Below, piece by piece: positions 2,658 through 46,989 of a stretch of DNA of 64,000 nt. Source of the DNA: a virus; IMG/VR virus record IMGVR_UViG_3300006923_000018, positions 1-64,000 of that record. One strand, 5' to 3'. Made by a program: the position numbers and the translations under genes. Position 1 is the first letter of the stretch; every line of letters starts with the position of its first letter. Below the pieces are notes generated by a model. That model was not told the origin of the DNA and searched no databases. It worked only from the letters and a program-made list of their open reading frames with translations.

Positions 2658-2820
2658 GCTTGTAAGCGAACTAATCAATGCTTCGGACGATAATCGGGTT
2701 TTCACCTATGTAATCTAATGCCCCACTTCTCATTATATCCCCCGCCGGTAATCAAGGTTCAAAGCCCGTTTTAATCGATTGTGGCCTACATCCGACAATT
2801 TTTTCATCAAATTTTTCAAC

Positions 2821-3011
2821 TATGCAAATCTGAATTTTTTTTCTATGCAAAATTTCAGGGTCATCACTCACTAATCCAGTTTCTAAGCCTAAAGGTTTGT
2901 ACTGTATCGGATGATTTGCATCTATGCAAGTTGCAGAGTTATCTATGCAAAGTGGTAGTTTAAGTATGCAAAATCAAAAGTTTAAGTATGCAAACGTATT
3001 TTGCTATGCAA
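2821..3011. repeat. Seven-copy TATGCAA iteron array
   Basis: TATGCAA occurs at 2821, 2844, 2923, 2944, 2965, 2987 and 3005, all in one orientation. The last five are spaced 21, 21, 22 and 18 bp, close to two helical turns, which puts the sites on one DNA face. The surrounding sequence differs between copies apart from a recurring TAAG or TCTA just before the box. An AT-rich region follows. This is what an iteron origin or a cooperative operator array looks like. Confidence 0.7.
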
Positions 3012-3211
3012 TTGACTGTATCTCATGTTTTTGTTTTGAAAAGTTCTTTTTGGCTCGGTGTTTTTTGTTAAAACCGTAAGAACTGGGCTAATTTTGATTA
3101 ATAATTCGGTTTTATAGCCTAAAGACGTCAATTACTTAAAGTAATTTCTAGATCGTCTCCATAATCGGGGTTTAAAGGGGATAATTTTTTACACCTTATA
3201 TATTATATATA

Positions 3212-3229
3212 TACTACTACGTAGTAGTA
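3212..3229. repeat. 18-bp perfect palindrome in AT-rich tract
   Basis: TACTACTACGTAGTAGTA reads identically on both strands. It follows a run of TA steps (about 3197-3213) and precedes the structured element. It could be a cruciform, a regulator site or a strand-opening region. Confidence 0.7.
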
Positions 3230-3234
3230 GTATT

Positions 3235-3420
3235 AGGCTAGCTGCGCTAGCCTTATACAAACTGATCGTTTGTCTTGTTTGGCAACAAGTTATTTCTGCC
3301 CCTGATGGGGCTATTCGCCTAACATGCCTGTCATTTGTCGCTTCGCTCCAAACGGTTATCAATCCGCTGGGTTGATAACGGCGTTTTTCTTTCCCTTCGG
3401 GGGGCAGAGCCAAGCGAAGT
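3235..3420 (+). ncRNA. Candidate structured RNA or structured DNA element
   Basis: Several complementary pairs are nested here: AGGCTAGC/GCTAGCCT (3235-3242, 3246-3253), CTTGTT/AACAAG (3274-3289), GCCCC/GGGGC (3298-3311), GTTATCAA/TTGATAAC (3355-3362, 3372-3379), TCTGCCCC/GGGGCAGA (3295-3302, 3401-3408) and CTTCGCT/AGCGAAG (3341-3347, 3413-3419). The last two cross, so a pseudoknot is possible. GCGTTTTTCTTT after the GTTATCAA stem could terminate transcription. No protein frame here is convincing. Confidence 0.45.
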
Positions 3421-3492
3421 TATTTAATAATACAATAATTATACTATTAGCTTTTTTGGCTTTTGCTTGTGGGTGTGTCGTCAGTTTTGGTA

Positions 3493-3501
3493 TGTTATAG
3501 T
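3493..3501 (+). promoter_or_regulatory. Extended -10 promoter
   Basis: TGTTATAGT matches the extended -10 consensus TGnTATAAT with one mismatch, and no good -35 is seen, as is usual for this class. A start near 3508 would give a leader of about 20 nt ahead of the GGGGGA ribosome-binding site and ATG at 3527. Confidence 0.45.
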
Positions 3502-3526
3502 CTTGAGCTACTGGGGGATTTACTGG

Positions 3527-3595
3527 ATGAGTTTAGGTGGTCATACGGGGAATACGTATGTTGGGTCATCTGGTGACTGTGTGTATTTTCATTAG
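3527..3595 (+). CDS. 22-residue leader peptide, putative
   Basis: A short ORF (starts MSLGGHTGNTYVG) with GGGGGA eight bases ahead of its ATG. It is the first start after the extended -10 promoter and overlaps the next small ORF. It may be a translated leader controlling the downstream membrane peptide and methyltransferase, or chance. Confidence 0.35.
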   Translation: MSLGGHTGNTYVGSSGDCVYFH

Positions 3596-3680
3596 TGTTT
3601 GTGTGGGATGTTATTTAGCGGTTGAGTGTGTTCTTCGGATTCTCTACTGGTCATTATTTGGGGGTAATTGGTACAGATGA
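3558..3680 (+). CDS. 40-residue membrane peptide
   Basis: This ORF has one membrane helix at about residues 4-24 (LVTVCIFISVCVGCYLAVE). GGGG lies eight bases upstream of its ATG. Its TGA overlaps the methyltransferase ATG (ATGA at 3677-3680), and the methyltransferase has no good ribosome-binding site of its own, so coupling from this ORF is the likely way it is translated. Function unknown. Confidence 0.5.
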   Translation: MLGHLVTVCIFISVCVGCYLAVECVLRILYWSLFGGNWYR

Positions 3681-4606
3681 GTCGTCTAGAGACATCATTA
3701 GGGATGGATGAGTCTGTTGAGACGATTCATCGACCTGGTTGGTTATGCAATCGTTTGGTTCAGGGTGATTGTTTACGCGAGTTGCGTCGAGTGCCGGACA
3801 ATTCTATCCAATTGGTGCTTTGTGATTTGCCTTATGGCACAACAGCTAACGATTGGGATTCTGTAATCTCGTTGCCTATTTTATGGACTCATTACCGTCG
3901 TATTTTGAAGCCTGGGGGTGTAGTTGCGTTAACGGGTCAGGGTCCATTTACGGCCAGGTTAATTTTGAGTAATGAGTCGTGGTTCAAGTATAAAATGGTG
4001 TGGGTAAAGTCGAAGGCTACGAATTTTTTAAATGCGAAGCGTCAGCCGTTGCGCAAGCATGAGGACGTGGTAATTTTTTATGGTTCACGTCCTGTGTACA
4101 ATGTATTGAAGCAGCCGGGAGATCCGTATGACAAGGGTATTCGCAAGAATCAGCTAACTGGTTCTTATGGTGAGTTTAATCCGAGTCATTGTCGTTCTGA
4201 CGGTGGTCGTTATCCGACAGACGTGGTTTATTTTAAGTCATCGGAGTCTGAGGGAACGGTTTACCATCCGACTCAGAAGCCAGTGCAGTTGGGTCGTTAT
4301 TTGGTACGTATGTTTTCTAATCCAGGAGACGTGGTGTTAGACAACTCGTTTGGTTCTGGTTCTTTTCTAGTTTCTGCTTTACTTGAAGGTCGTAATTTTT
4401 ACGGGATTGAATTAAATGATGAGTCGTTTCAATTTTGTTCAAAGCGGACAAGTTGGTTTGACATAGCGCGGAAACGCTTAAAAGAGGCGTGGAAAAGCTT
4501 AGATAGTGTCCATCGGGGTTGGATTACGCGAGTTGGTGAACTACGAGGCCCTGTAGCGCCCGTTAAGGCCCCTACAGCGAGCCCGGCTCCTGAACCTAGC
4601 CCTTGA
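3677..4606 (+). CDS. DNA N6-adenine (or N4-cytosine) methyltransferase, beta class
   Basis: A 309-residue enzyme that transfers a methyl group from S-adenosylmethionine to DNA. Catalytic motif IV is DLPYG (residues 50-54), and the SAM-binding motif, NSFGSGSF, comes later (about 222-230), preceded by HPTQKP. This order defines the beta class of the N6_N4_Mtase family; DLPY favours adenine. No target-recognition extension or partner endonuclease is present, so it is an orphan modifier. The Pro-rich C-terminus (PVKAPTASPAPEPSP) is disordered. The target site cannot be read from sequence, but GATC is dense in the flanking control region. Confidence 0.9.
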   Translation: MSRLETSLGMDESVETIHRPGWLCNRLVQGDCLRELRRVPDNSIQLVLCDLPYGTTANDWDSVISLPILWTHYRRILKPGGVVALTGQGPFTARLILSNESWFKYKMVWVKSKATNFLNAKRQPLRKHEDVVIFYGSRPVYNVLKQPGDPYDKGIRKNQLTGSYGEFNPSHCRSDGGRYPTDVVYFKSSESEGTVYHPTQKPVQLGRYLVRMFSNPGDVVLDNSFGSGSFLVSALLEGRNFYGIELNDESFQFCSKRTSWFDIARKRLKEAWKSLDSVHRGWITRVGELRGPVAPVKAPTASPAPEPSP

Positions 4607-13064: not shown

Positions 13065-13082
13065 TTGACGACAGGGGGTGAT

Positions 13083-13697
13083 ATGGGTGGTTACGAGGTG
13101 GTTTACTGTGATCCGCCCTGGTCGTACACACACAATACCTACTCGGCTCGCGACAATGATGGTATCAAGTCCATAAGCTTGAGTCATGTTACAGATAAGT
13201 ATCCAACGCTCAGCTTGGTTGAGATGATGTGTTGGGATTTGGAATCTATTTTAGCTGATGATGCTTTGATATTTATGTGGGCCACTGGTCCTGTATTGGA
13301 GGAGTCCTTTCCTCTCATGAATTCGTGGGGCTTTTCGTTTATGACGGTTGGGTTTGTCTGGGAAAAGGTAAAGGTGAACCCTGGCTATTACACAATGAGC
13401 AGTTGCGAATACGTGTTAATTGGAAAGCGTGGCACCATTCCTCAGCCGAGGGGGAGCAGGTCTGTTAGACAGTTTCATCAGGAGTTGTCTACACGTCACA
13501 GTGCAAAGCCTGATGAGATTCGCGAACGGATCGAAGAGATGTTTCCAACTCAGAAAAGGCTAGAGATGTTTTGCCGAACGCCAAAAGAGGGTTGGGACAT
13601 ATTCGGAAACGAGGTAGATAGCAGCATAGTCATCCCGAAGCGAAGCCGATTAGAGGTGAAGCGCCTTGGGAGTGTCATGTGGAGGAAGTGGGCATGA
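13083..13697 (+). CDS. MT-A70 family adenine N6-methyltransferase
   Basis: A 204-residue protein with the catalytic DPPW motif (residues 10-13, VVYCDPPWSY) at the N-terminus and the family's later blocks: LIFMWATGP, GFVWEKVK, CEYVLIGKRG and a C-terminal DIFGNEV. These enzymes transfer methyl from SAM to the N6 of adenine, in DNA for the phage members. The ATG at 13083 has GGGGGTGAT directly upstream and is preferred over the TTG at 13065. It overlaps the next gene by four bases. With the beta-class enzyme at 3.7 kb it gives the phage two unrelated adenine methyltransferases. Confidence 0.9.
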   Translation: MGGYEVVYCDPPWSYTHNTYSARDNDGIKSISLSHVTDKYPTLSLVEMMCWDLESILADDALIFMWATGPVLEESFPLMNSWGFSFMTVGFVWEKVKVNPGYYTMSSCEYVLIGKRGTIPQPRGSRSVRQFHQELSTRHSAKPDEIRERIEEMFPTQKRLEMFCRTPKEGWDIFGNEVDSSIVIPKRSRLEVKRLGSVMWRKWA

Positions 13698-14008: not shown

Positions 14009-15658
14009 ATGGATGTTAATAACTATCATTATTTAATGAGTTCTTTAACGACTCAGTTTCCTTTATTTCGTTTAGCTCTTTCTACTCATCAAAATACTCG
14101 CGGCAAGCCTATTTCGTTTGCTGACAAGCCGTATTTGATTGAGCTTTATACTGAGCTTCCCAAGTTGCCCGGTGCTGATATCCGTAAGGCAGTTCAGACT
14201 GGTTTATCAGAATTGTTTATACAGCTTATTTTAGAGCGTGCAGGCTGGGCGGGTAAAATTACAGCTTACGTCTTGCCTACATTTACAATTAGAGATCGAT
14301 TTGTCCAGAACCGAGTGAACCCGTTACTGGCTTCTATCCCTGCTTATAAGATGCGAGCTACATCGGACGGCAAGGGAGGTCAGGGAAACCTTAAGCTGAA
14401 GCGTTTTGGCAAGGGCGCGATGATGTTTTTGGGCTCTAATACTGTAGCGGATTTTATTGAATTCTCTGCTGATGTTTTAGTTATTGACGAGTTTGATCAG
14501 TGTGATCCTGAGAATCTAGCTAAGGCTCGCGACCGATTAAGGGCTTCTGAGTACCCGCAGATGTTTCGTTTAGGGAACCCAACGTTGCCGCGCACGGGGA
14601 TTAGTCGTCTCTATGAGCAAAGCGATCAGCGGATTTGGATGAGTCGCTGCAACCACTGTAATCATTGGCAGCCGATTGATTGGTTTGCTAATATTATTCA
14701 TCGCAATGATACGGGCGATTGGGCTTTGCGTGACAAAGAGCGGATTGGTTCTAATTTAGATGCTCGACCTATGTGCGTTAAATGCAATCAGCCTTTTGAT
14801 CGTGGCGTGAAGCATGGGGCGTGGGTTGCGCGTCGTCCTTCAGTAGATTGGCGAGGCTACACGGTTAGCCGTCTTGATTGTTTAACTGAAAACTATAAGA
14901 ATTTATTTATGGAATGGATGAGCGGTCAGGGTCAATCTGAGATGCTGTCTACGTTTTACACATCTGTCTTAGGAATTCCGTATGAGCATAGTGGGTCACG
15001 ATTATCAATGGAGGCTTTAAACAACGCATCTGTTGGTGCAGAACTCGATTATGGTGGTGGTGATGCGTATGCTAATGAGGTGGTCACATTAGGCATTGAT
15101 GTTGGTGCAGTATTGAACTGTTCGCTAAGTGTGATGCGAAAGCGTGAAGACGGGACTTTATTACGTGATGCTCGCTATATTGGGGCAGTGCGGACGTTTC
15201 GTGAAGTGTCCGACATAATTCGTCGTTATCATGTTGATTGCTGCATAATCGACTCAATGCCTGAAACGCGCAAGGCTCAAGAGCTTCGTGATGAGTTTTT
15301 GAGTAGTGGATCTTGTCAGGTTTGGCTGTGTAGATTTCATCCGACCCAACGTGTTGGTCAGCAACTTTACGGTCTAAAGATGAATTTCAGGGAACGAGTA
15401 ATTACTGTAGATCGTACACAGGTGTTTGATGCCACATTTGACGATATTAAGCACGGAAGGCGTCGTTTCCCATCTGACATTCAAACAGTTTTCGGGTGGT
15501 CTGCTCAGATGCGTGCCAGCGTTCGTGTGTTGAATGAGGGGAAGGGGCGTATCATTTGGACAGAAGGCAGGAACCCGGATCATTATCGTTTAGCTGGAAT
15601 TTACGACCGCATTGCGTATGATGTTATGGAATACGGTGGTGGATATTTTGCTGCCTAG
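14009..15658 (+). CDS. terL: Terminase large subunit, GpA type
   Basis: A 549-residue packaging motor that cuts concatemeric DNA and drives it into the prohead. The N-terminal ATPase has a degenerate Walker A (QTGLSE, 63-68, where the usual Lys is Leu) and Walker B VIDEF (158-162). Cys pairs CNHC (214-217) and CVKC (256-259) form the zinc site found in GpA-like terminases. The C-terminal RNase H-like nuclease starts at LGIDVGA (Asp 364) and continues with IIDSMPE (Asp 415). Length is normal for the family after allowing for a short N-terminus. No small subunit is adjacent. Confidence 0.92.
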   Translation: MDVNNYHYLMSSLTTQFPLFRLALSTHQNTRGKPISFADKPYLIELYTELPKLPGADIRKAVQTGLSELFIQLILERAGWAGKITAYVLPTFTIRDRFVQNRVNPLLASIPAYKMRATSDGKGGQGNLKLKRFGKGAMMFLGSNTVADFIEFSADVLVIDEFDQCDPENLAKARDRLRASEYPQMFRLGNPTLPRTGISRLYEQSDQRIWMSRCNHCNHWQPIDWFANIIHRNDTGDWALRDKERIGSNLDARPMCVKCNQPFDRGVKHGAWVARRPSVDWRGYTVSRLDCLTENYKNLFMEWMSGQGQSEMLSTFYTSVLGIPYEHSGSRLSMEALNNASVGAELDYGGGDAYANEVVTLGIDVGAVLNCSLSVMRKREDGTLLRDARYIGAVRTFREVSDIIRRYHVDCCIIDSMPETRKAQELRDEFLSSGSCQVWLCRFHPTQRVGQQLYGLKMNFRERVITVDRTQVFDATFDDIKHGRRRFPSDIQTVFGWSAQMRASVRVLNEGKGRIIWTEGRNPDHYRLAGIYDRIAYDVMEYGGGYFAA

Positions 15659-15672
15659 AGCGGTCAGCGAAG

Positions 15673-16317
15673 ATGGACGAGTGGCAAGATTACTGGTTAA
15701 GGATGGAGTCCCGTTCTTCAATTTTGGAGAGGGAGTGTCTTCAGAATATTCATCAGCTAGCAGAGTGGGCGGTTGAGAATACTCGCGGGGATGTGGTGAC
15801 GTGCAGTCCTGGCAATGCGACGAGCGCGTTAGTCATCGGAAATGCAATTCGCGCAAAGTGCCCTAAGTACTGGTTTTATGATACCAGGAATAATTTTAAT
15901 TACTACATTCCTGATTCTGATTATGGCGCTTATGTGTATTCCAAACTGCATAGTTGTGACCCTGACAAGATGGTTGATCTATTCAATTCATTAAACTTAG
16001 GCTTGCCTATATTCAGTAGTGTCTTGAACAGTTTTAATATGGAGATTGAGATTCCCAAATCAATTTCATTTCTGCATATTAATGCAAGCCTTAATGTGTT
16101 GGTAAAGCGATGTTTAGATCTCTTCTATGATAATGTTGAAGAGGGCGGAATAATCGTTTTAGATGATTTTGGCTGGTGGGAAGGATCTCGCCGCGCTTTT
16201 TACAGTTTTTGTTTTAGTCATGGCGAGTATCCGTTGTTGGAGAGGTGTGGATGTAGCCAAGTGTATTGGATAAAGGGTCGCACTCATAATCGCATTAGTG
16301 GTTATAAAATATTGTAA
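15673..16317 (+). CDS. TylF/macrocin O-methyltransferase-like protein, possibly inactive
   Basis: A 214-residue Rossmann-fold protein. The C-terminal half, FLHINASL then VEEGGIIVLDDFGWWEGSRR (about 133-174), matches the TylF family, in which the first segment normally reads LHIDADL and the Asp residues bind the catalytic metal. Here they are Asn and Ser, while the later DD pair is kept. The SAM-binding loop (VTCSPGNATS) is also weak. It lies between terminase and portal, where modification enzymes are unusual. It may be a binding-only derivative, or it may use another chemistry. Confidence 0.6.
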   Translation: MDEWQDYWLRMESRSSILERECLQNIHQLAEWAVENTRGDVVTCSPGNATSALVIGNAIRAKCPKYWFYDTRNNFNYYIPDSDYGAYVYSKLHSCDPDKMVDLFNSLNLGLPIFSSVLNSFNMEIEIPKSISFLHINASLNVLVKRCLDLFYDNVEEGGIIVLDDFGWWEGSRRAFYSFCFSHGEYPLLERCGCSQVYWIKGRTHNRISGYKIL

Positions 16318-16352
16318 CCGCTATGATACTCTGAGTGCTGAAGGGGAAAGAG

Positions 16353-20843: not shown

Positions 20844-21842
20844 ATGACTATGAATCCAAACTGGATGGGCGCATCAGATCCCCGTCGCCGCGAAGCAATT
20901 GAGCGTGCATTGAACGTTACCAATGTTGGTTCTGTATTAATGCAGTCTTACATTAACCGAGTTGTTCAACAGCTTAGCGTTCGAGAATTTGGCGCATGGG
21001 CTACCCTGGACCATCGAACTGGCTCCGGCCTTGCTGCATATATTAACCAGCGCACCCCAGGTGCAGCCGGTGGCGTATGGGTGGCAGACACGGCGGCAGC
21101 TACAGCAGAACAGGGGACGTATGCTCAGGTAACATTCCCGTATAAGACTTTGCTGACGCAAGGTGCTGTTACTCGTAAGGCTCAGGCTGTTGGCGCATCT
21201 TATGGTGACTTGCTTGCAACCTCTATCGCTGGAAAGAGTGAGGACTTTGCCGCTAAGATGGAATCTTCCCTCATCAATGGTGACACTAATGCAACTCCTG
21301 CTGAGATCAATGGTCTTCTAACGCAGATCGATCAGGTAGGTGGACAGGTTATCGCCAATACCAGCGCGGCTGCTGGTGATGATCTAACTCTTGCCCAACT
21401 TGATGCAGCTATTGACGCTGTTCGAGGCAGCGCTTCACGGTCGGACGTTGTGATTTACGGCTCATTCCTTGGAATGCGTAAACTCAATGCCGCACTTCAG
21501 GCGCAGCAGCAGTTTTCCAATATGACGGAAATTGCGGCTGGCTTCAGAGTTCGTACATACGATGGAATCCCAATGGTTACTACCACTGGCATTAACGATG
21601 ACATGGTTTGGAGCGGAACTGCTATCACGGCTACCACCGGTGCAGGTGCAGGCGTTGAGACGACTGCTCTCATTGTCGTTAATAAGCGAGACTGCTGGAT
21701 TGAGGAGCTTACCCCTCTCACCGTCATGCCGCTTGCTAAGACTACGAGCCAAACAGAGTCTTTCGAAATGTTCTGGGACGGAGCGCTGGTTCTTGGTAAT
21801 ACTAAGGGCGCGTCAATTCTCGGTGGTCTAAGCATCGTTTAG
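20844..21842 (+). CDS. Major capsid protein, HK97 fold
   Basis: A 332-residue protein immediately after protease and scaffold. It has a helical N-terminus, then Ala/Gly/Thr-rich strands and the motif QVTFPYKTLLTQGAVTRKA typical of the E-loop/P-domain transition in HK97-like capsids, and ends in strand-rich sequence (NKRDCWIEELTPL). It lacks a long N-terminal delta domain, fitting with the separate scaffold. AAGGGGCTCTAAA precedes the ATG. Codon use is richer in C-ending codons than its neighbours, as expected for the most expressed gene, and a strong terminator follows. Confidence 0.88.
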   Translation: MTMNPNWMGASDPRRREAIERALNVTNVGSVLMQSYINRVVQQLSVREFGAWATLDHRTGSGLAAYINQRTPGAAGGVWVADTAAATAEQGTYAQVTFPYKTLLTQGAVTRKAQAVGASYGDLLATSIAGKSEDFAAKMESSLINGDTNATPAEINGLLTQIDQVGGQVIANTSAAAGDDLTLAQLDAAIDAVRGSASRSDVVIYGSFLGMRKLNAALQAQQQFSNMTEIAAGFRVRTYDGIPMVTTTGINDDMVWSGTAITATTGAGAGVETTALIVVNKRDCWIEELTPLTVMPLAKTTSQTESFEMFWDGALVLGNTKGASILGGLSIV

Positions 21843-22260: not shown

Positions 22261-22848
22261 ATGCCAACATTTACAACCCGTCATCGTGTCCGATCACTCC
22301 TTGGCCTTGCCAGTGGTGTCACTGTTCATGATGAACTAATCGATGTTCTTGTAGATGTTGCAGATCAAATGGTATTCGATGAGATTGATTTGCCAGCCGC
22401 AAGCGGTGGCCGAGTAACTGCATTTGATGAATATATTGATATAGATCGTTACGGCGTCAATGAGTTCGCAATTACTAATATGCCATTAGTAAGTGTCGTG
22501 GCAATTACTACTGGTGGAACCAGCGGCACGCTTTTGGATTCCGATAATTATTATTCTACAGCCTGGGGCCAAGTGCGTTTAACTAACAATGAATCTTATT
22601 TTCCGGTTGGTCGCCGTAAAGTATGGATTACATATAAGGCTGGATTTGTTAATATCCCACCTGACCTTTCTCACGCAGCCACGATCATAGCAGTTCATCA
22701 TTTTAATGAAGGGCCACACGTCGGTTTTCAAAGTGAACGATTATCCACTTATAACTATAAACTCGCGAATTTAGGCAATGGTATGACAATGCCGCCAATT
22801 GCTCAGCGCATCTTGTATAAATACCGCAGGGCTTTTGCCCGGCCATAG
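22261..22848 (+). CDS. Head-tail connector (gp6-like adaptor)
   Basis: A 195-residue protein with the usual adaptor pattern: an N-terminal helix pair (TRHRVRSLLGL, DELIDVLVDVADQMV), a central beta section with LVSVVAITTGG, YYSTAWGQVRL and RKVWITYKAGF, and a helical end (PPDLSHAATIIAVHHFNEG). Such proteins form the ring beneath the portal. Confidence 0.8.
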   Translation: MPTFTTRHRVRSLLGLASGVTVHDELIDVLVDVADQMVFDEIDLPAASGGRVTAFDEYIDIDRYGVNEFAITNMPLVSVVAITTGGTSGTLLDSDNYYSTAWGQVRLTNNESYFPVGRRKVWITYKAGFVNIPPDLSHAATIIAVHHFNEGPHVGFQSERLSTYNYKLANLGNGMTMPPIAQRILYKYRRAFARP

Positions 22849-22856
22849 GAGTCATT

Positions 22857-23255
22857 GTGACACAACTAAGAAAACGCAAAAGGCCAGGCGACCGCCTAAC
22901 GGTTCATACTCCCAGCGAAATCGTACACTGTCATCTAGTAGACAATTTTATGGTGGCATCGTGCAAGTCTTCATCAGCCGTTCGAGCACTAAAGCGAAAA
23001 GGGTTTAAGGTTTTTGAAGGCGCCCCCGCGTCAAAGCCAAAGAAGGCAGCCGCTAAATCAAGTCCAAACAAAGAATTAAAGTATGGAATTGAGTTCGATA
23101 TTCTACGCGCAAGTGTTGATGACCTTTGTGATGAGTTATCATCAGGAAGCCATGACGCTCACCTTAAAAACTTGTTAGAATGCGAGAAAGGCTCGAAGGC
23201 GAGAAAGACGGCTATTGAAGCCATAGAATCGAGAATTGCAAAACTAGCCCCGTAG
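22857..23255 (+). CDS. Hypothetical head-module protein
   Basis: A 132-residue basic protein from a GTG start with AGGAG five to eight bases upstream. The N-terminal half (GDRLTVHTPSEIVHCHLVD) is strand-rich; a Lys/Ala/Ser linker (PKKAAAKSSPNK) joins a helical C-terminal domain. It resembles small head proteins that recognise the capsid edge only in position; no family assigned. Confidence 0.6.
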   Translation: MTQLRKRKRPGDRLTVHTPSEIVHCHLVDNFMVASCKSSSAVRALKRKGFKVFEGAPASKPKKAAAKSSPNKELKYGIEFDILRASVDDLCDELSSGSHDAHLKNLLECEKGSKARKTAIEAIESRIAKLAP

Positions 23256-23305
23256 TGAGCATCTGATTTCTATTGCCACTGATGGTTATAGAGGATTTTA
23301 ATATT

Positions 23306-24025
23306 ATGAAAAAGCATATAGTTACTGTAATTGGTGATCACTTTTGCGTGGGTGCTCGGGATATTTGCGGATTTCCCAATCGTCTCCATGTGGAGTTCGG
23401 GAAGTCTTCCGGCCCAATGTATACAGCCGTTCTGGGGCATGGCGTGTCTGGTGGAATCCGCAAGGTGTCAGAAGAGGTGTCATCCGCCATTACAGATGCT
23501 TATTCTTATGATGCTGATGAGTATACAGCCCTGCTCTGGGTTGGTGTTGGAGATCTAAAATCAGGCGGCATCCCATTTAGCGCTTGGGAGAATATGCTAG
23601 ATCATTGCCTTTGCTCTCTCTTGGCTGCTGACATGAACGTATATGTAATCATTCATAACTGGCCTTTTGACGCTTCTTTCTTTGATAAGTCTTGGAAGAA
23701 ATGGGTTATCAAAATTAATGATATTAAAAGAAGGCTTTGTAAAAAGTACGGTATTTGGTTTATACGAGTAGACGTGGAAACAGAAGACTTTGCAGATCTT
23801 TATTCCCTTAAAGCTAAATCGTATCAATATGTCTCTCATCAAATTGCTAAAGAAGTTTGCGCCGGTTTGAAAAAACAATCCGCTTCCGAGGACAGCTTTC
23901 CAGAAGTAGTGCAGCGGCCTTCTCGTAAACGGGTTGATCCTGTTATTGAATCTAATAATAATGAGGAGCAGAACATGAACTTAGTTATTGTGGCTCCAGA
24001 TCGCGTTCGCCACGAAAGGAGATAA
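23306..24025 (+). CDS. SGNH-hydrolase-like fold, catalytic motifs degenerate
   Basis: A 239-residue protein. VTVIGDHFCVGARD resembles SGNH block I (usually GDS), LLWVGVGDLKSGG resembles block III, and the helix before the C-terminus sits where block V would be, but the nucleophilic Ser and the D-x-x-H pair are not clearly present. An acyl-esterase-like role on carbohydrate is therefore unproven. Lies in the head-connector region close to the glycosyltransferase gene. AGAGGATTTTAATATT precedes the ATG at 23306. Confidence 0.4.
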   Translation: MKKHIVTVIGDHFCVGARDICGFPNRLHVEFGKSSGPMYTAVLGHGVSGGIRKVSEEVSSAITDAYSYDADEYTALLWVGVGDLKSGGIPFSAWENMLDHCLCSLLAADMNVYVIIHNWPFDASFFDKSWKKWVIKINDIKRRLCKKYGIWFIRVDVETEDFADLYSLKAKSYQYVSHQIAKEVCAGLKKQSASEDSFPEVVQRPSRKRVDPVIESNNNEEQNMNLVIVAPDRVRHERR

Positions 24026-24026
24026 A

Positions 24027-24497
24027 ATGCGTCCTTCAGTTCTAATAGTTTGTGACAGCATGGATCATGCTTTGTTCAACGACTTGGTATACAAGAAAGA
24101 CTTGTGCATTGTTGGAGAGTGCCCAAAGGAGGGCGCTCCTAAGAAGTACGGCAATACTCCAATCACACTCTTAGATCATAGTGAATTAAATAATTTTAGT
24201 TGGATGAGCGTGGTGAGCGGCAGTTCAGATGGATGCGTTAAACTCCTGAAAGATACTTCTAATCTTACTCATGTAGTAGTGGTGGTAGTGGCTGGCGTTG
24301 CTAGTCCTGCTCTTAAAAAGCTATGCGATAAGGCTCTTTTAATAGAAGTTCATCCTGGCTATTTTGGGATTGTGTCTGCTGAGAATAATACATATGCGCT
24401 AGAGGTGATTGCAGATGGAAAGTCCCCGAAGGCTCCAGCCAAGGCACCTAAACCCGCGAAGGCTCCAGAGCCTGCCCCAGCACCGCCCGCGTCATGA
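24027..24497 (+). CDS. Hypothetical protein with a Lys/Pro/Ala tail
   Basis: A 156-residue protein with Rossmann-like alternation (VLIVCDSMDHALF, HVVVVVVAGVASPALKKL) and a disordered C-terminus (KAPAKAPKPAKAPEPAPAPP). AAAGGAGATAAA precedes the ATG, two bases from the previous stop. The fold could bind a nucleotide sugar or cofactor, which would fit the nearby glycosyltransferase, but no motif proves it. Confidence 0.55.
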   Translation: MRPSVLIVCDSMDHALFNDLVYKKDLCIVGECPKEGAPKKYGNTPITLLDHSELNNFSWMSVVSGSSDGCVKLLKDTSNLTHVVVVVVAGVASPALKKLCDKALLIEVHPGYFGIVSAENNTYALEVIADGKSPKAPAKAPKPAKAPEPAPAPPAS

Positions 24498-25129
24498 TTA
24501 TAAGTAGCGCACAGCGTCGGTTTACAATCATGCGCCTAACAGCGTTTGTTTTGGATGAGATTACATCTAAGGCAACAATGAGTGCAGATCGTCAGCCTGT
24601 CCGTGAATCAATCTTTCAGGTTCGTGTTCATAGCGGCACAACCAATTCCGGCACTGTCCAAATAACCGGATTAGACATAGACGGTAACTCTATCAATGAA
24701 ACTCTTACGTTTACTACAGCTGGCTATAAGCAAACCTCTAAGCGTTATGTAAGTATTAGCGCGGACGGTATTGTAACTACTGGCCTAGCGGATGAGGCGG
24801 CAGTTCCAAATATTGCAATCAAGGCTCTTGGTCCTGATGGTTCTATTCAGAACATATCGTACATAGTAACGAAGGGCTGGCCTGCGATCATGGATAGGAG
24901 TCGTCCTTCTCGTGCTGATTGGAAGGGTGAGATCCCAGGTTCAATGGAAGAGGAGCCAGTCTTCATTATGCTTCAGTGGACTGAAAACTTCTTCCCACGC
25001 GAAGGCGATATTTTTATAGATGATGATACTGCTGAGCAGTTTATTTTAACAGGAACCCCTCTGCTAGAGGGCTACGGTAGAGTTAGTCATTATGCAATCT
25101 GGGCGCAGAGGCGTCAGGGATCTGTATAA
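24494..25129 (+). CDS. Hypothetical beta-rich virion protein
   Basis: A 211-residue protein rich in Thr, Gly and Ile with strand periodicity (SGTVQITGLDIDGNSINETL). The first half resembles an immunoglobulin-like or decoration beta sandwich. The ATG at 24494 overlaps the previous stop; an ATG at 24530 is also possible. Position between head connectors and tail completion genes suggests a capsid decoration or neck protein. Confidence 0.55.
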   Translation: MIISSAQRRFTIMRLTAFVLDEITSKATMSADRQPVRESIFQVRVHSGTTNSGTVQITGLDIDGNSINETLTFTTAGYKQTSKRYVSISADGIVTTGLADEAAVPNIAIKALGPDGSIQNISYIVTKGWPAIMDRSRPSRADWKGEIPGSMEEEPVFIMLQWTENFFPREGDIFIDDDTAEQFILTGTPLLEGYGRVSHYAIWAQRRQGSV

Positions 25130-25163: not shown

Positions 25164-28058
25164 ATGCTTGCTATGCGCGGCAAGATTGCGAATGATAAGA
25201 AGCATGATGCGTTAGTAGTTATCCCGACTATTGGCGTTCCCGAGCCCTTCCTTGGTTTTTATAAAAACTTTATTGATTCTCTTAGTCTTAAGGCAAAGAT
25301 TGTAATTTCTATAAACCCTGTAGAGAAGTCTCATGCGGACTTGTCTATTAAGTTAATCAATTCTGTTAATCTACCTGATGGATGCTCTTTGATTATTGAG
25401 CGTGCTGACGGCCCGATAGGTTTTGGTGCGGCTATAAATGCAGGTTTGATTAGAGGAATAAAAGAGGGCGGCCTTCCCAAGTATGTCATTACGGTGAATG
25501 ATGATCTAGTGCTCGCCTCTGGCTGGGACACTGGATTGATTCGCGGTCTTGAGGCAAAGTCCTTTTGCTCTCCTGTTGAGCTTCCTGATTCAGACACCCT
25601 CCTGCGTACCAAGTACGATATTTCTCATATCAATAAGATTGGTCTTGTAGGTCCAGTTACAGATTACGCTGGAGGGATGCAGCAAGTTATAAACAGGAAA
25701 GACCTGGGCTCTAAGAGTTATGCGGACTTTGCTAAGGAGTGGTCCGAGACTCCATTTAATAAAAATGTTCTGATGAGCACTAATCTTGTAGTTGGCCTGT
25801 GTTGCGGGATGAAGCGTGCTTTTATTAAAGACATGCTTTTAGACAACGGCGAATCCTACATTGGTATTTACGATGAGGATTCATTTCCTATCGGCGGGTA
25901 CGAAGACAATGATCTTTGTGTGCGTGCTTCATTAGCTGGGTGGGGAGTTGGCCTTGCGTGGGATGTTTTTGTTGGGCACCTGGGCTCACAAACTTTGAAT
26001 CGATACTTTCCAGATCATCTTCGAGGACGCAAGAATCAGTCGAATTATTACGAGAAGTGGAAAGATATAACTTACAGAAAAGCTAAAAATAAGCTTGTAA
26101 GTGTTTACCGGATAAAGATTTCAACAGTAAACGATCTAATGATGTTGAAGCAAAGCCTGTTGCGCCATTCAGAGATTGTGGACGGTCACGCGATCCTTCT
26201 CACGAATAATCCATTAGATATTATTGATGCTGCTGATTGGGCCGCTTCTGGTGCATCTCTTGATGCTAGAGATCATCAGTTGCTTCATGATTCCAGTAAT
26301 AAGGGTGCCCCTGGTGTTGCCAAGGCATTCAGGTCTTGGGTTCTCGACATTACCAATCAAGATCCCGAGGTCAAAGTTGAGGTATGGCAAAAAGGGTTTA
26401 ATGAGCGGGATGAGCGGAACAGAGCCATCGATATTGCAGAATCCATGAGTCCAGACTGGTGCATATCTATCGATCATGACGAGATTCTAGAAGACCGAAT
26501 TACTAGAGGACACCTTGAACGGTATATGCGTCATCCTGACCCGCTGGTCTCAACTTGGGAACTGGGATGGCTGAACCATTGGGATAGTCCACGTATGTGC
26601 CGCATAGACGGTCCCTGGGGAGACAAGGGGGAGTTCAGAGGGGGGATGCGGGGGTCTAGGCTGTGGCGCGTTCTGAACGGGCAAGAATCGCGAATTCTAA
26701 GCGGGGGTGAAGATGGTCTTCATTGTGGGAATATTCCTCCCTTCTTTCCATCATCTGTTCGCAAGTCCGGTGCGCGATTTAGGCACTTTGGATATTTGAA
26801 GGCAGAAGATCGGTTTAGAAAATATCAGTTTTATCGCAAGCTAGATCCCAATCCCTCCATTTCTGAAGTCGGCGCCCACGATTATAGCCATCTAATTAAT
26901 GAAGAAAAAATGATGATGCGTGTCTACAATCCAACAAACGGTATTGGGCTCCATATGCTAGTATATGAGAAAGAGGAGCCCACCAATATCGCGGCACTCC
27001 TCAACGAGTTGCACGGGATGATGGACCAGATTGTACTGGTGTGGACTGGAGAATGGAATGATGAGGACAAATTTTGGTCTGTTGCTGGGCTCGACGCCCC
27101 ATCCATAGAGGCATGGCCCGCAACGGGACCAAGCCGGGAGTTGGCTCATTACGCGCAAGCACATAACGCTGCCATTATTCATCATCCTCTCGAAAATAAT
27201 ATCGCGCAAGCACGGAATGCTGGCATCAATTACTTAAATCAATTTCATAAAAATGGACTCGGATGGGCTTTATTTCTAGATCCCGATGAGACCTTTTTAG
27301 ATATGCACGATACTGTTACAGCTATGCGCGAGATGGCCCTATCTACTGATGCGTGGGGGTGGCTCTTTAAGTATAGAAATCTTCTACCGGGTGGCGGATC
27401 TTCATCTTCTGAAAGTGTACGCATGGTCAAGCTGGATTCAGCCAAGATTATGCAGATGAACGGAAGAGTTCATGAATCATTTGGGCATTCAATTAAGCGT
27501 CTTCAAGATCTGGGCATTCACCCATCCTTCCAATACGCGCCGTTCTATTCAATCAATGATGGATTAAATCGGACACCAGAACAGAACGCGGCAAAGGTAA
27601 ATCTTTATCGTGGTCTACTGATTGAGGAGCTTGAAGCTAATCCGCTTCAGCCTGGTCCGTGGGTTTCACTGGGACTGCAATACAATAATGACGGAAACCC
27701 CGAAATGGCTAAAGAGTGTTACGAGCGAGCGGTCATTTGCGCCGGGACCAGCTTTTTGCCATTTATGGAGTTGGCACTTTATCATCTTCGTGTTGGGAAA
27801 TCATTACTGAAAGAGGTAGTAACTCGCACAGTAAGTCATCACGATGCCCACAATATTGCTGTGAAGGGCATTGAGATTTTAGACAAGCTGGCCCCAGGGC
27901 AACCCTATATAGAAACTGGTGGCCCTATTGCAAAGGATGCGCTGCTTCCTGATTTTCCATTCAGTGAGTTGATCGATAATATCGAAGAGTCTCAAAACAA
28001 CTCGATAAACGAGAGCGAATCCTTTACCATAGAGGAAGGGGCCGGGCTCCGCGTATGA
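25164..28058 (+). CDS. Three-domain GT-A glycosyltransferase with TPR-like C-terminus
   Basis: A 964-residue protein with three GT2-like domains. Domain 1 (about 10-300) has LVVIPTIG and the metal-binding VNDD (111-114) with a GGYEDNDLCVRA acceptor motif; domain 2 (about 310-600) has ISIDHDE (about 434-440); domain 3 (about 610-820) has NIAQARNAGI and LFLDPDE (about 702-708). Residues 830-920 look like TPR repeats (WVSLGLQYNNDGNPEMAKECYERAV). It presumably transfers sugars to a protein, lipid or DNA-linked acceptor; the acceptor is unknown. GGAGGTCGT precedes the ATG. It sits inside the structural module, between head-connector and tail-completion genes. Confidence 0.85.
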   Translation: MLAMRGKIANDKKHDALVVIPTIGVPEPFLGFYKNFIDSLSLKAKIVISINPVEKSHADLSIKLINSVNLPDGCSLIIERADGPIGFGAAINAGLIRGIKEGGLPKYVITVNDDLVLASGWDTGLIRGLEAKSFCSPVELPDSDTLLRTKYDISHINKIGLVGPVTDYAGGMQQVINRKDLGSKSYADFAKEWSETPFNKNVLMSTNLVVGLCCGMKRAFIKDMLLDNGESYIGIYDEDSFPIGGYEDNDLCVRASLAGWGVGLAWDVFVGHLGSQTLNRYFPDHLRGRKNQSNYYEKWKDITYRKAKNKLVSVYRIKISTVNDLMMLKQSLLRHSEIVDGHAILLTNNPLDIIDAADWAASGASLDARDHQLLHDSSNKGAPGVAKAFRSWVLDITNQDPEVKVEVWQKGFNERDERNRAIDIAESMSPDWCISIDHDEILEDRITRGHLERYMRHPDPLVSTWELGWLNHWDSPRMCRIDGPWGDKGEFRGGMRGSRLWRVLNGQESRILSGGEDGLHCGNIPPFFPSSVRKSGARFRHFGYLKAEDRFRKYQFYRKLDPNPSISEVGAHDYSHLINEEKMMMRVYNPTNGIGLHMLVYEKEEPTNIAALLNELHGMMDQIVLVWTGEWNDEDKFWSVAGLDAPSIEAWPATGPSRELAHYAQAHNAAIIHHPLENNIAQARNAGINYLNQFHKNGLGWALFLDPDETFLDMHDTVTAMREMALSTDAWGWLFKYRNLLPGGGSSSSESVRMVKLDSAKIMQMNGRVHESFGHSIKRLQDLGIHPSFQYAPFYSINDGLNRTPEQNAAKVNLYRGLLIEELEANPLQPGPWVSLGLQYNNDGNPEMAKECYERAVICAGTSFLPFMELALYHLRVGKSLLKEVVTRTVSHHDAHNIAVKGIEILDKLAPGQPYIETGGPIAKDALLPDFPFSELIDNIEESQNNSINESESFTIEEGAGLRV

Positions 28059-28065
28059 GGTAGTT

Positions 28066-28578
28066 ATGTCGATGTCAGTGGATGCCGGTAGTCTAAAGGT
28101 CATAATCTTTAGACTAGACGGCAAGAAGCGCGGCATTAAAAAGGCAAGCCTAATTGCTCTAGAGCGAATGGGTAAGATTCTCCATGCGCGTATTCTAGAG
28201 AATATGTCATACAAGGATCATTCATTATCTGATTTAGCCAGGTTAGATCATCCTTATGCAAAGCAACGTTATGGTGGAATTCAAATCCATAAGCAGAAGC
28301 CCTACGTCGTTCATCAGCAGGGAACACACAACAGCCTAAATCTGAACACTGCTCTTACTGGAAAGTTAATTAAAAGCCGGTATACATATGAGATTAAACT
28401 AGACCACAAGAAAGCCCCATATGCAAAATGGGTTATTTATGGAACTAAGGTAATGTTCGGGCGTAGTGTATTATGGCAAACCGGCGCTGAGAAATCTACT
28501 AGGCGAAAAATGATGAAGGAAGCCATTAAGGTTGTTGGTGCAGAGACAAGATTAAAAGCTGGCATTCGGTTCATATAG
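28066..28578 (+). CDS. HK97 gp10-like tail-completion protein
   Basis: A 170-residue protein with a helical start (LIALERMGKILHARILENM) and a beta-rich basic remainder, the pattern of HK97-gp10-like neck proteins. It precedes the tail terminator, the expected gene order. GAGGTAGTT precedes the ATG. Confidence 0.65.
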   Translation: MSMSVDAGSLKVIIFRLDGKKRGIKKASLIALERMGKILHARILENMSYKDHSLSDLARLDHPYAKQRYGGIQIHKQKPYVVHQQGTHNSLNLNTALTGKLIKSRYTYEIKLDHKKAPYAKWVIYGTKVMFGRSVLWQTGAEKSTRRKMMKEAIKVVGAETRLKAGIRFI

Positions 28579-28586
28579 GAGGACTT

Positions 28587-29000
28587 TTGGCAAATTCAAT
28601 GTTGGACATCTTGCAGATTATACGCGGTCTGCTTTTTGCTGATAGCACCATTACTGGAATGGTTGGTGATGCGATCTATACTTCTCATATTCTTGATGCT
28701 GATGCTGGAACGGCGCCTCTCCCTGCGTATATTATTTCTCTTGATAATGGTACATCAATGTATAATGGACAGGTTCAGTTTCAGGATATTGAGGCTTACG
28801 GTTATTCGCGCATAAGTGCAGCCGAAGCCATGTCCGTTTATCAGGCTGGGTATAATGTTCTCCAGGCTAGTCGTCTCACGCTGGATAATGTTTCAGCCAA
28901 GGGATATATCTACGAAATCAATCGTCCCGATTCAGGTTATAACGATCGGATTAAAGCATGGTTTGTCCGTGGTCGATTCCATGCAGTAACGGCAGGATAA
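28587..29000 (+). CDS. Tail terminator protein
   Basis: A 137-residue protein matching tail-terminator size and gene order (after gp10-like, before tail tube). The N-terminal helix (LDILQIIRGLLFADSTI) and the strand YIYEINRPDSGYND fit gpU/gp17-like proteins, which cap the tail tube and join it to the neck. The TTG at 28587 has GGAGG four bases upstream and is favoured over the ATG at 28599. Confidence 0.65.
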   Translation: MANSMLDILQIIRGLLFADSTITGMVGDAIYTSHILDADAGTAPLPAYIISLDNGTSMYNGQVQFQDIEAYGYSRISAAEAMSVYQAGYNVLQASRLTLDNVSAKGYIYEINRPDSGYNDRIKAWFVRGRFHAVTAG

Positions 29001-29651: not shown

Positions 29652-30212
29652 ATGCCTCTTAATATACCTACTGGCACAACAAACGACATTTCATTTGGTC
29701 CAGCGCGACTCTTCATCAAGCCCTGGGCTGCTGCGGCCATGGGAACCCCAGACACTGACGTAGGTTACATCAGTGAGGATGGCGTTAGTGTTGAAATTAC
29801 TAGCGAGATGAAAGATATTGTTCAGGGCAATCCTAAGCTTATTGAATATACTTTCAGCCAAACTCAGGGAGTTTCAGTCACTCTAAGCTCGATTGAGTGG
29901 GATTTTAATAATCTTGTCTATGCGCTCGGCGCTGGCGTTACTGCAAACGGTGCTACACTCAAGTATTCTTTTGGTGGAGATCCCCTTGTAAGTTCCGTAG
30001 CGCTCAACATTGAGCACCAGATGGCGGTTACTGGTAATACACTTAATCTTTATGTGTGGAAGGCCGTCAGTGAATCTGGAGTGAGCTTCCCGTTTGGCGC
30101 TGACGAGCATACATTTGAATACAAATGGAAAGCTCAGCGTGCGGACACTGATTGGGGTGGCACCGCCTTGACTTACGAAAAGCAACTGATTCAGATTTTA
30201 CGATCTAGCTAA
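29652..30212 (+). CDS. Major tail tube protein
   Basis: A 186-residue strand-rich protein with repeated TVTL-like periodicity (VSVTLSSIEWDFNNLVYALG), size and place typical of the siphovirus tube subunit. AAGGAGACAAGAGC precedes the ATG. Codon use is more C-ending, as in the major capsid gene. There is no sheath gene, so the tail is non-contractile. Confidence 0.78.
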   Translation: MPLNIPTGTTNDISFGPARLFIKPWAAAAMGTPDTDVGYISEDGVSVEITSEMKDIVQGNPKLIEYTFSQTQGVSVTLSSIEWDFNNLVYALGAGVTANGATLKYSFGGDPLVSSVALNIEHQMAVTGNTLNLYVWKAVSESGVSFPFGADEHTFEYKWKAQRADTDWGGTALTYEKQLIQILRSS

Positions 30213-46916: not shown

Positions 46917-46989
46917 TGGAGTGTAGCACAACTGGCAGTGCATCCGACTGTTAATCGGAAGGTTGCAGGTTCGAGTCCTGCCGCTCCAG
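46917..46989 (+). tRNA. tRNA-Asn (anticodon GTT)
   Basis: A complete cloverleaf: acceptor TGGAGTG/CGCTCCA (one G-T), D-arm GCAC/GTGC, anticodon stem TCCGA/TCGGA with loop CTGTTAA, T-arm GCAGG/CCTGC with TTCGAGT. The anticodon is GTT and the discriminator G is correct for Asn; CCA is not encoded. It begins at the base after the helicase TGA and ends 13 nt before the nuclease GTG. Confidence 0.95.

Follow-up and report, generated by a model that had tools for sequence, protein, structure and literature searches.

A conserved three-domain glycosyltransferase fixed among the virion-building genes of an uncultured tailed-phage lineage

What would a phage do with a large glycosyltransferase (GT) whose gene sits between those for the head-tail connector and the tail? 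This question is raised by a locus within a 64,000-base stretch (hereafter the window), which covers positions 1 to 64,000 of an IMG/VR virus record 76,280 bases in length. PHROGs matches support TerL at 14009 and the portal at 16335, both on the same strand as the GT gene, and the surrounding features are listed below, where 'closure', 'gp10-like' and 'terminator' are positional working names and not database calls:

15673..16317, +, TylF-like O-methyltransferase, borderline (PF05711, 22.9 bits against a cut-off of 23.0)
20844..21842, +, major head protein (MCP; phrog_212, 2.3e-14)
22261..22848, +, head-tail adaptor (phrog_442, 1.6e-17)
22857..24497, +, variable slot between the adaptor and 'closure', which holds a sugar-nucleotide and tailoring island in relatives
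23273..24025, +, SGNH-like protein, an SGNH-like frame with catalytic Ser, Asn and His not conserved
24494..25129, +, 'closure' head-tail connector, directly upstream of the GT (homologues in 63 loci)
25164..28058, +, three-domain GT with TPR-like tail, 964 residues (ATG start, AlphaFold2 model, 43-homologue alignment)
28066..28578, +, gp10-like tail-completion protein, directly downstream of the GT (homologues in 59 loci)
28587..29000, +, tail-terminator-like protein (position and conservation)
29652..30212, +, major tail (tube)-like protein (Ig-type PHROG match, 5e-7 and 1.5e-4)

Elsewhere in the window, a single tRNA-Asn (46917-46989) lies between a helicase gene (45198) and an exonuclease gene (47003), and two DNA/RNA methyltransferase-type genes (N6_N4_Mtase, MT-A70) and a ParB-like protein are found at 3668-4606, 13065-13697 and 53502-54257. 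Beyond the right end of the window, a reading of the sequence of record positions 63500-76280 (L220) places an AAA/MoxR-like gene at 1538-2761 of that segment, followed by a VWA-like gene at 2758-4185.

A preliminary description of this locus had proposed that the product combines three GT-A domains, with separate NDD, DHDE and DPDE motifs, and a TPR tail within a head-tail gene cluster. The open reading frame at 25164-28058 on the + strand is a real gene call that begins with ATG and encodes 964 residues. The window GT remained below the curated Pfam cut-offs for Glyco_tranf_2_3, Glyco_tranf_2_4, Glycos_transf_2 and TPR_1, and searches of PHROGs and NCBIfam with this protein returned no match. 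Because its single-sequence Pfam matches were all sub-threshold, we tested the claim of three GT domains through its relatives. Using a 43-sequence alignment, AlphaFold2 predicted three GT-A-type alpha/beta domains followed by a helical tail (mean pLDDT 90.3, pTM 0.88), which are arranged as follows:

25164..26087, +, GT domain 1, GT-A, residues 1-308 (K4CP profile match, invariant D114 and D248)
25497-25505, +, NDD motif of domain 1 (residues 112-114)
25902-25913, +, EDND motif of domain 1
26076..26939, +, GT domain 2, GT-A, residues 305-592 (homology to domain 3)
26472-26483, +, DHDE motif of domain 2 (residues 437-440)
26721-26732, +, HCGN motif of domain 2
26937..27563, +, GT domain 3, GT-A, residues 592-800 (GmaR, SunS and ThuS profile and fold matches)
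27279-27290, +, DPDE motif of domain 3 (residues 706-709)
27465-27476, +, RVHE motif of domain 3
27564..27938, +, helical TPR-like tail, residues 801-925 (TPR profile matches, helices in predicted models)

The motif residues are retained throughout the family. D114 and D248 of domain 1 and D706, D708, E709, H770 and E771 of domain 3 are invariant in all 43 homologues, and 42 of them conserve D437, D439, E440 and E443 of domain 2; the middle residue of the NDD motif is either D or N, with D114 fixed. In close pairs with unsaturated dS, dN/dS was approximately 0.04-0.31 in every GT domain, and the GT is under purifying selection. A Foldseek search with the whole chain matched tandem GT-A polymerases (K4CP and heparosan synthase), SunS/ThuS and ppGalNAc transferases. 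Each domain displays the predicted GT-A fold and the acidic metal motif of the GT2 superfamily, domain 2 doing so through its homology to domain 3, and the window GT is, as recognised by profile and modelled fold, a divergent member of that superfamily. The proposed domain composition is therefore upheld by motifs and model, and the C-terminal part is helical and TPR-like by both profiles and models. No 19-residue Kyte-Doolittle segment of the GT exceeds 1.37, which indicates that the enzyme carries no membrane anchor.

The clearest indication of what the GT may act on comes from domain 3. A profile of domain 3 and the tail matched GmaR (E=2.3e-27), SunS (1.1e-20) and ThuS (1.8e-18). When this part was modelled separately (pLDDT 93.8), the top six PDB matches in Foldseek were all SunS or ThuS (E 4e-12 to 1e-10, approximately 330 columns) and the matches after them stood at E 1e-5, about five orders weaker, with TM-scores that were moderate (0.44-0.56). 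A distant member, L066, matched GmaR as a single sequence (E 5.5e-22) and matched the SunS family TIGR04195 at 3.4e-27, although its 95 bits fall far below the cut-off of 350; the window GT did not match this equivalog and is not filed as SunS. Sequence and fold both relate the phage protein to GmaR and SunS by a GT domain with a C-terminal helical or TPR part. SunS, which is from prophage SPbeta, and ThuS are peptide S-glycosyltransferases with a single GT domain that act on a bacteriocin peptide, and they are the best fold match of domain 3 and the tail as well as a profile match. GmaR of Listeria is a flagellin GlcNAc transferase that joins a GT2 domain to TPRs, which its authors propose recognise flagellin; domain 3 matches its GT domain, the DxD and HE motifs align, and the GT-then-TPR order is shared (PMC9638930). 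GmaR differs in having one GT domain and an antirepressor domain and in acting on flagellin, whereas in the phage protein two more GT domains precede this module and the gene lies in a phage structural block. That GmaR, the closest solved relative, glycosylates flagellin raises the alternative that the phage enzyme favours infection by glycosylating a host protein, such as flagellin, pilin or a protein of defence or transcription, which the TPR-like tail could bind. However, the GT is conserved across phage contigs that range from 43% to 71% G+C, and hence probably across very different hosts, and it is positioned with late genes; we regard a host-protein target as quite unlikely.

The other two domains resemble different enzymes. 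The nearest relatives of domain 1 are enzymes that build polysaccharides: its profile matched the chondroitin polymerase K4CP of E. coli at E=7.9e-15, in an alignment that includes the ED motif. K4CP makes free polysaccharide; like the phage GT it has GT-A domains in tandem, two in its case, but it is without a TPR tail and without a protein-GT domain. Domain 2 finds its relative within the same protein, in domain 3 (hhalign probability 98, E=2.8e-13), and its profile matches GmaR weakly. The full architecture of domains 1, 2 and 3 and TPR tail was recovered in 74 of 91 loci, and in five further loci all of these parts are present, but cross-hits between domains 2 and 3 scramble their apparent order. 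Two loci (L162 and L175) encode a GT without domain 1, and in three (L122, L128 and L130) only domain 3 and the tail are clearly recognisable. Because these reduced architectures retain domain 3 and the tail, we consider that part the constant module of the family. The closeness of domain 1 to polysaccharide GTs, together with matches of distant members to GtrB-like and GT moron PHROGs on this domain, would also fit an enzyme that modifies host surface glycans (O-antigen, capsule or teichoic acid) late in infection and thereby prevents superinfection or keeps progeny from re-adsorbing to debris, and epimerases and methyltransferases of the kind found in the neighbouring slot serve surface glycans as well. 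We consider this reading unlikely, since the GT has no membrane segment, protein glycosyltransferases are the nearest relatives of its domain 3, and it is a co-inherited core gene fixed in the connector block, unlike the patchy morons of serotype conversion.

How firmly the GT belongs to this block is evident from its distribution. Single queries with the GT or MCP recovered only near-identical contigs, and a portal query recovered three relatives at 53-65%, including L011; the family was opened by alignment queries with MCP, GT (60 loci), tail-tube and wider MCP. At 95% identity, 45 distinct IMG/VR loci span the adaptor to the GT, and some contigs are near-duplicates. The preliminary description had named absence from close relatives as a result that would count against it. 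The gene is not absent from them: among contigs that span the site on both sides, the GT is present in 50 of the 53 found with the tube and in all 31 found with MCP, in searches that favour the GT-bearing clade because most of the MCP and tube seed sequences came from it. The candidate view of the GT as patchy cargo was rejected on these counts. By profile-based synteny, nearly all loci share the order adaptor, variable slot, 'closure', GT, gp10-like, terminator and tube, with 'closure' homologues upstream of the GT in most of 63 loci and gp10-like homologues directly downstream in most of 59, and the placement of the GT in a head-tail cluster is borne out by the PHROGs-supported structural genes that flank it. 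Exceptions are L078/L137, where the GT lies upstream of MCP, and L080, L084 and L217/L219, which show small rearrangements of gene order. In L041, L060, L217, L218 and L219, the portal is on the strand opposite MCP and GT, as is TerL in L041/L060; these five loci have a rearranged head module.

The GT has also diverged together with its neighbours. Its median pairwise identity (36.7%) is similar to that of the adaptor (37.9%), portal (38.5%) and 'closure' (31.0%), and MCP and tube diverge more slowly (56%). Pairwise identities of the GT track those of MCP, tube, gp10-like, closure, adaptor and terminator (r 0.69-0.81, p 0.0005), and GT length is conserved across loci. From the motif conservation, identity correlations and low dN/dS, we conclude that each of the three domains has been preserved and that the GT has travelled with the structural block. 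That the GT usually lies next to the same connector genes and keeps its length would also be expected if its main role were that of a structural component or chaperone at the head-tail joint, catalysis being subordinate or lost, and TPR-like tails do mediate assembly contacts. This explanation appears very unlikely, given that every metal motif is retained in 42-43 of 43 homologues, that some loci dispense with domain 1 or clearly retain only domain 3 and the tail, and that L121 possesses the same connector genes with no GT. In that locus 'closure' and the gp10-like gene are immediate neighbours and there is no cargo; L139 and L141 likewise contain head and tail genes and lack the GT, which indicates that the enzyme is not strictly required for assembly.

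The lineage that carries this gene is uncultured. The whole GT protein is absent among 50,697 isolate and reference phage records, and the window GT, its domains and two close homologues yielded nothing at E<=1e-5 against reference phages. Separate parts of L066 (762 residues) match reference phages, over at most 34% of the query and never as the whole architecture. Neither Xylophilus phage Lumi nor Acinetobacter phage TCUP2199, the closest TerL relatives examined, carries a gene this large between MCP and the tail genes. A scan of genome contigs returned two weak loci only, L086 and L087 (26-27%), from Actinomycetes MAGs. These encode very large proteins that resemble GTs in several stretches and are weakly related to domain 1, and phage structural genes were not detected beside them. 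Based on this distribution, the three-domain GT family belongs to an uncultured tailed-phage lineage, in which it is fixed among the virion-building genes. Phage GTs often modify DNA (PMC12619734, PMC13216743), and an enzyme that glycosylates phage DNA bases, as the T4 glucosyltransferases do, would be an alternative. We regard it as most improbable: a PF00303 thymidylate synthase/hydroxymethylase is absent from the 76-kb record (which may be incomplete, and other routes to base modification exist), the GT is in the structural block and not with replication genes, and domain 3 resembles protein GTs.

We also examined the variable slot upstream of the GT as a source of sugar-processing partners, which the preliminary description had seen in the SGNH-like and TylF-like genes. 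Across the loci, the genes lying between adaptor and GT encode 108 non-redundant proteins, of which 28 are NAD-dependent epimerases/dehydratases, seven Methyltransf_23, three TylF and three GDSL, with single matches to UDP-glucose dehydrogenase, DegT aminotransferase and RGP. At least one extra slot gene of at least 90 residues occurs in 37 of the 45 distinct loci, and the nucleotide-sugar epimerase/dehydratase family occurs in 23 of 45, accompanied by a methyltransferase in L011. Identities of the cargo epimerase track phage relationships (r 0.67 with GT, 0.57 with MCP), which suggests that it is exchanged less readily than its presence and absence imply. A reading of the L195 slot finds RmlD- and RmlB-like genes with B12/radical-SAM-like and sulfatase-like proteins; at approximately 12.2-20.9 kb in L195 and L196, a large sugar-nucleotide/radical-SAM-like/sulfatase-like/methyltransferase-like island replaces the short cargo, and the stretch ends before 'closure' and GT. 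The slot of the window holds only the SGNH-like protein and small proteins. Relatives of the SGNH-like protein match GDSL lipase families, but in the window three of its four catalytic residues are lost (Ser replaced by His in GDH, Asn by Gly, His by Ser), which makes hydrolase activity doubtful and weakens the earlier suggestion that the glycan is trimmed. The TylF-like gene lies outside this slot, between TerL and portal, and its close homologue was found only in window-type contigs, which weakens its case as a partner. At the level of the family, the recurrent partner is the epimerase/dehydratase, which about half of the distinct loci, the window among them, lack in the slot.

Taken together, we propose that the GT probably performs cytoplasmic glycosylation of a virion protein during particle assembly, one of the two targets, with the host surface, that the preliminary description had named. 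In the scheme that we infer for its activity, donors, order of steps, acceptor protein and benefit, a soluble cytoplasmic GT would modify a virion protein while the particle assembles. The TPR-like tail would recognise the acceptor, domain 3, as the GmaR/SunS-like part, would place the initial sugar on a side chain, to be followed by further sugars from domains 2 and 1, so that one polypeptide may both prime and extend a short glycan. Where present, the neighbouring epimerases, dehydratases and methyltransferases would supply or tailor activated sugars, and the glycan would probably shield or decorate the particle. A protein acceptor is suggested by homology to GmaR and SunS/ThuS, and GT2 enzymes switch acceptors easily. 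By its position the GT should be expressed with the late genes; location in the late block suggests co-expression and does not specify the target. We advance more tentatively, at somewhat less than even confidence, the fuller proposal of a core, lineage-defining machine in which one enzyme would start a glycan on a virion protein and lengthen it to three sugars, and the variable sugar-nucleotide island would diversify this glycan.

Precedents exist for parts of this scheme. The GT shares with phage virion glycosylation systems that it is phage-encoded and linked to virion genes. In the chlorovirus PBCV-1, A111/114R and A064R each combine three transferase domains in one protein and build part of the capsid-protein glycan (PMC9614988). 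We use the three-domain transferases of chloroviruses (PMC9614988, PMC7019647) as a working parallel with no homology shown, and PBCV-1 differs in being a eukaryotic algal virus with an N-glycan on its MCP and in that the third domain of A064R is a methyltransferase. In the mycobacteriophages Che8, Corndog and Myrna, phage-encoded GTs glycosylate capsid and tail-tube proteins, according to PMC12363180 and PMC12619734, which cite Freeman 2023 and do not describe them as three-domain enzymes. The GT genes of Maravista, a Che8-type phage, lie near the 3' end of its genome (PMC11256854). The phage GT had no sequence match to mycobacteriophage glycosylation GTs in the reference phage collection. 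A full-text literature search found no description of such a three-domain phage system, which is not proof of absence. The earlier remark that virion glycosylation of this kind is not commonly described must therefore be tempered, since it is established in mycobacteriophages, as are three-domain capsid-glycan transferases in chloroviruses. The three-domain phage enzyme itself is a real, conserved and under-described system.

In the papers cited here, phage virion glycosylation is described mainly for mycobacteriophages. If our proposal is true, the trait would be fixed and inherited in a widespread lineage of uncultured phages, in which the GT is as positionally stable as the connector genes and lies beside a changing set of sugar genes. 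Such a lineage would offer a testable case of why phages sugar-coat themselves outside animals, and the enzyme is a candidate three-step protein glycosyltransferase for glycoengineering. That the whole GT is missing from the reference phage records shows how much of phage biology cultivation misses.
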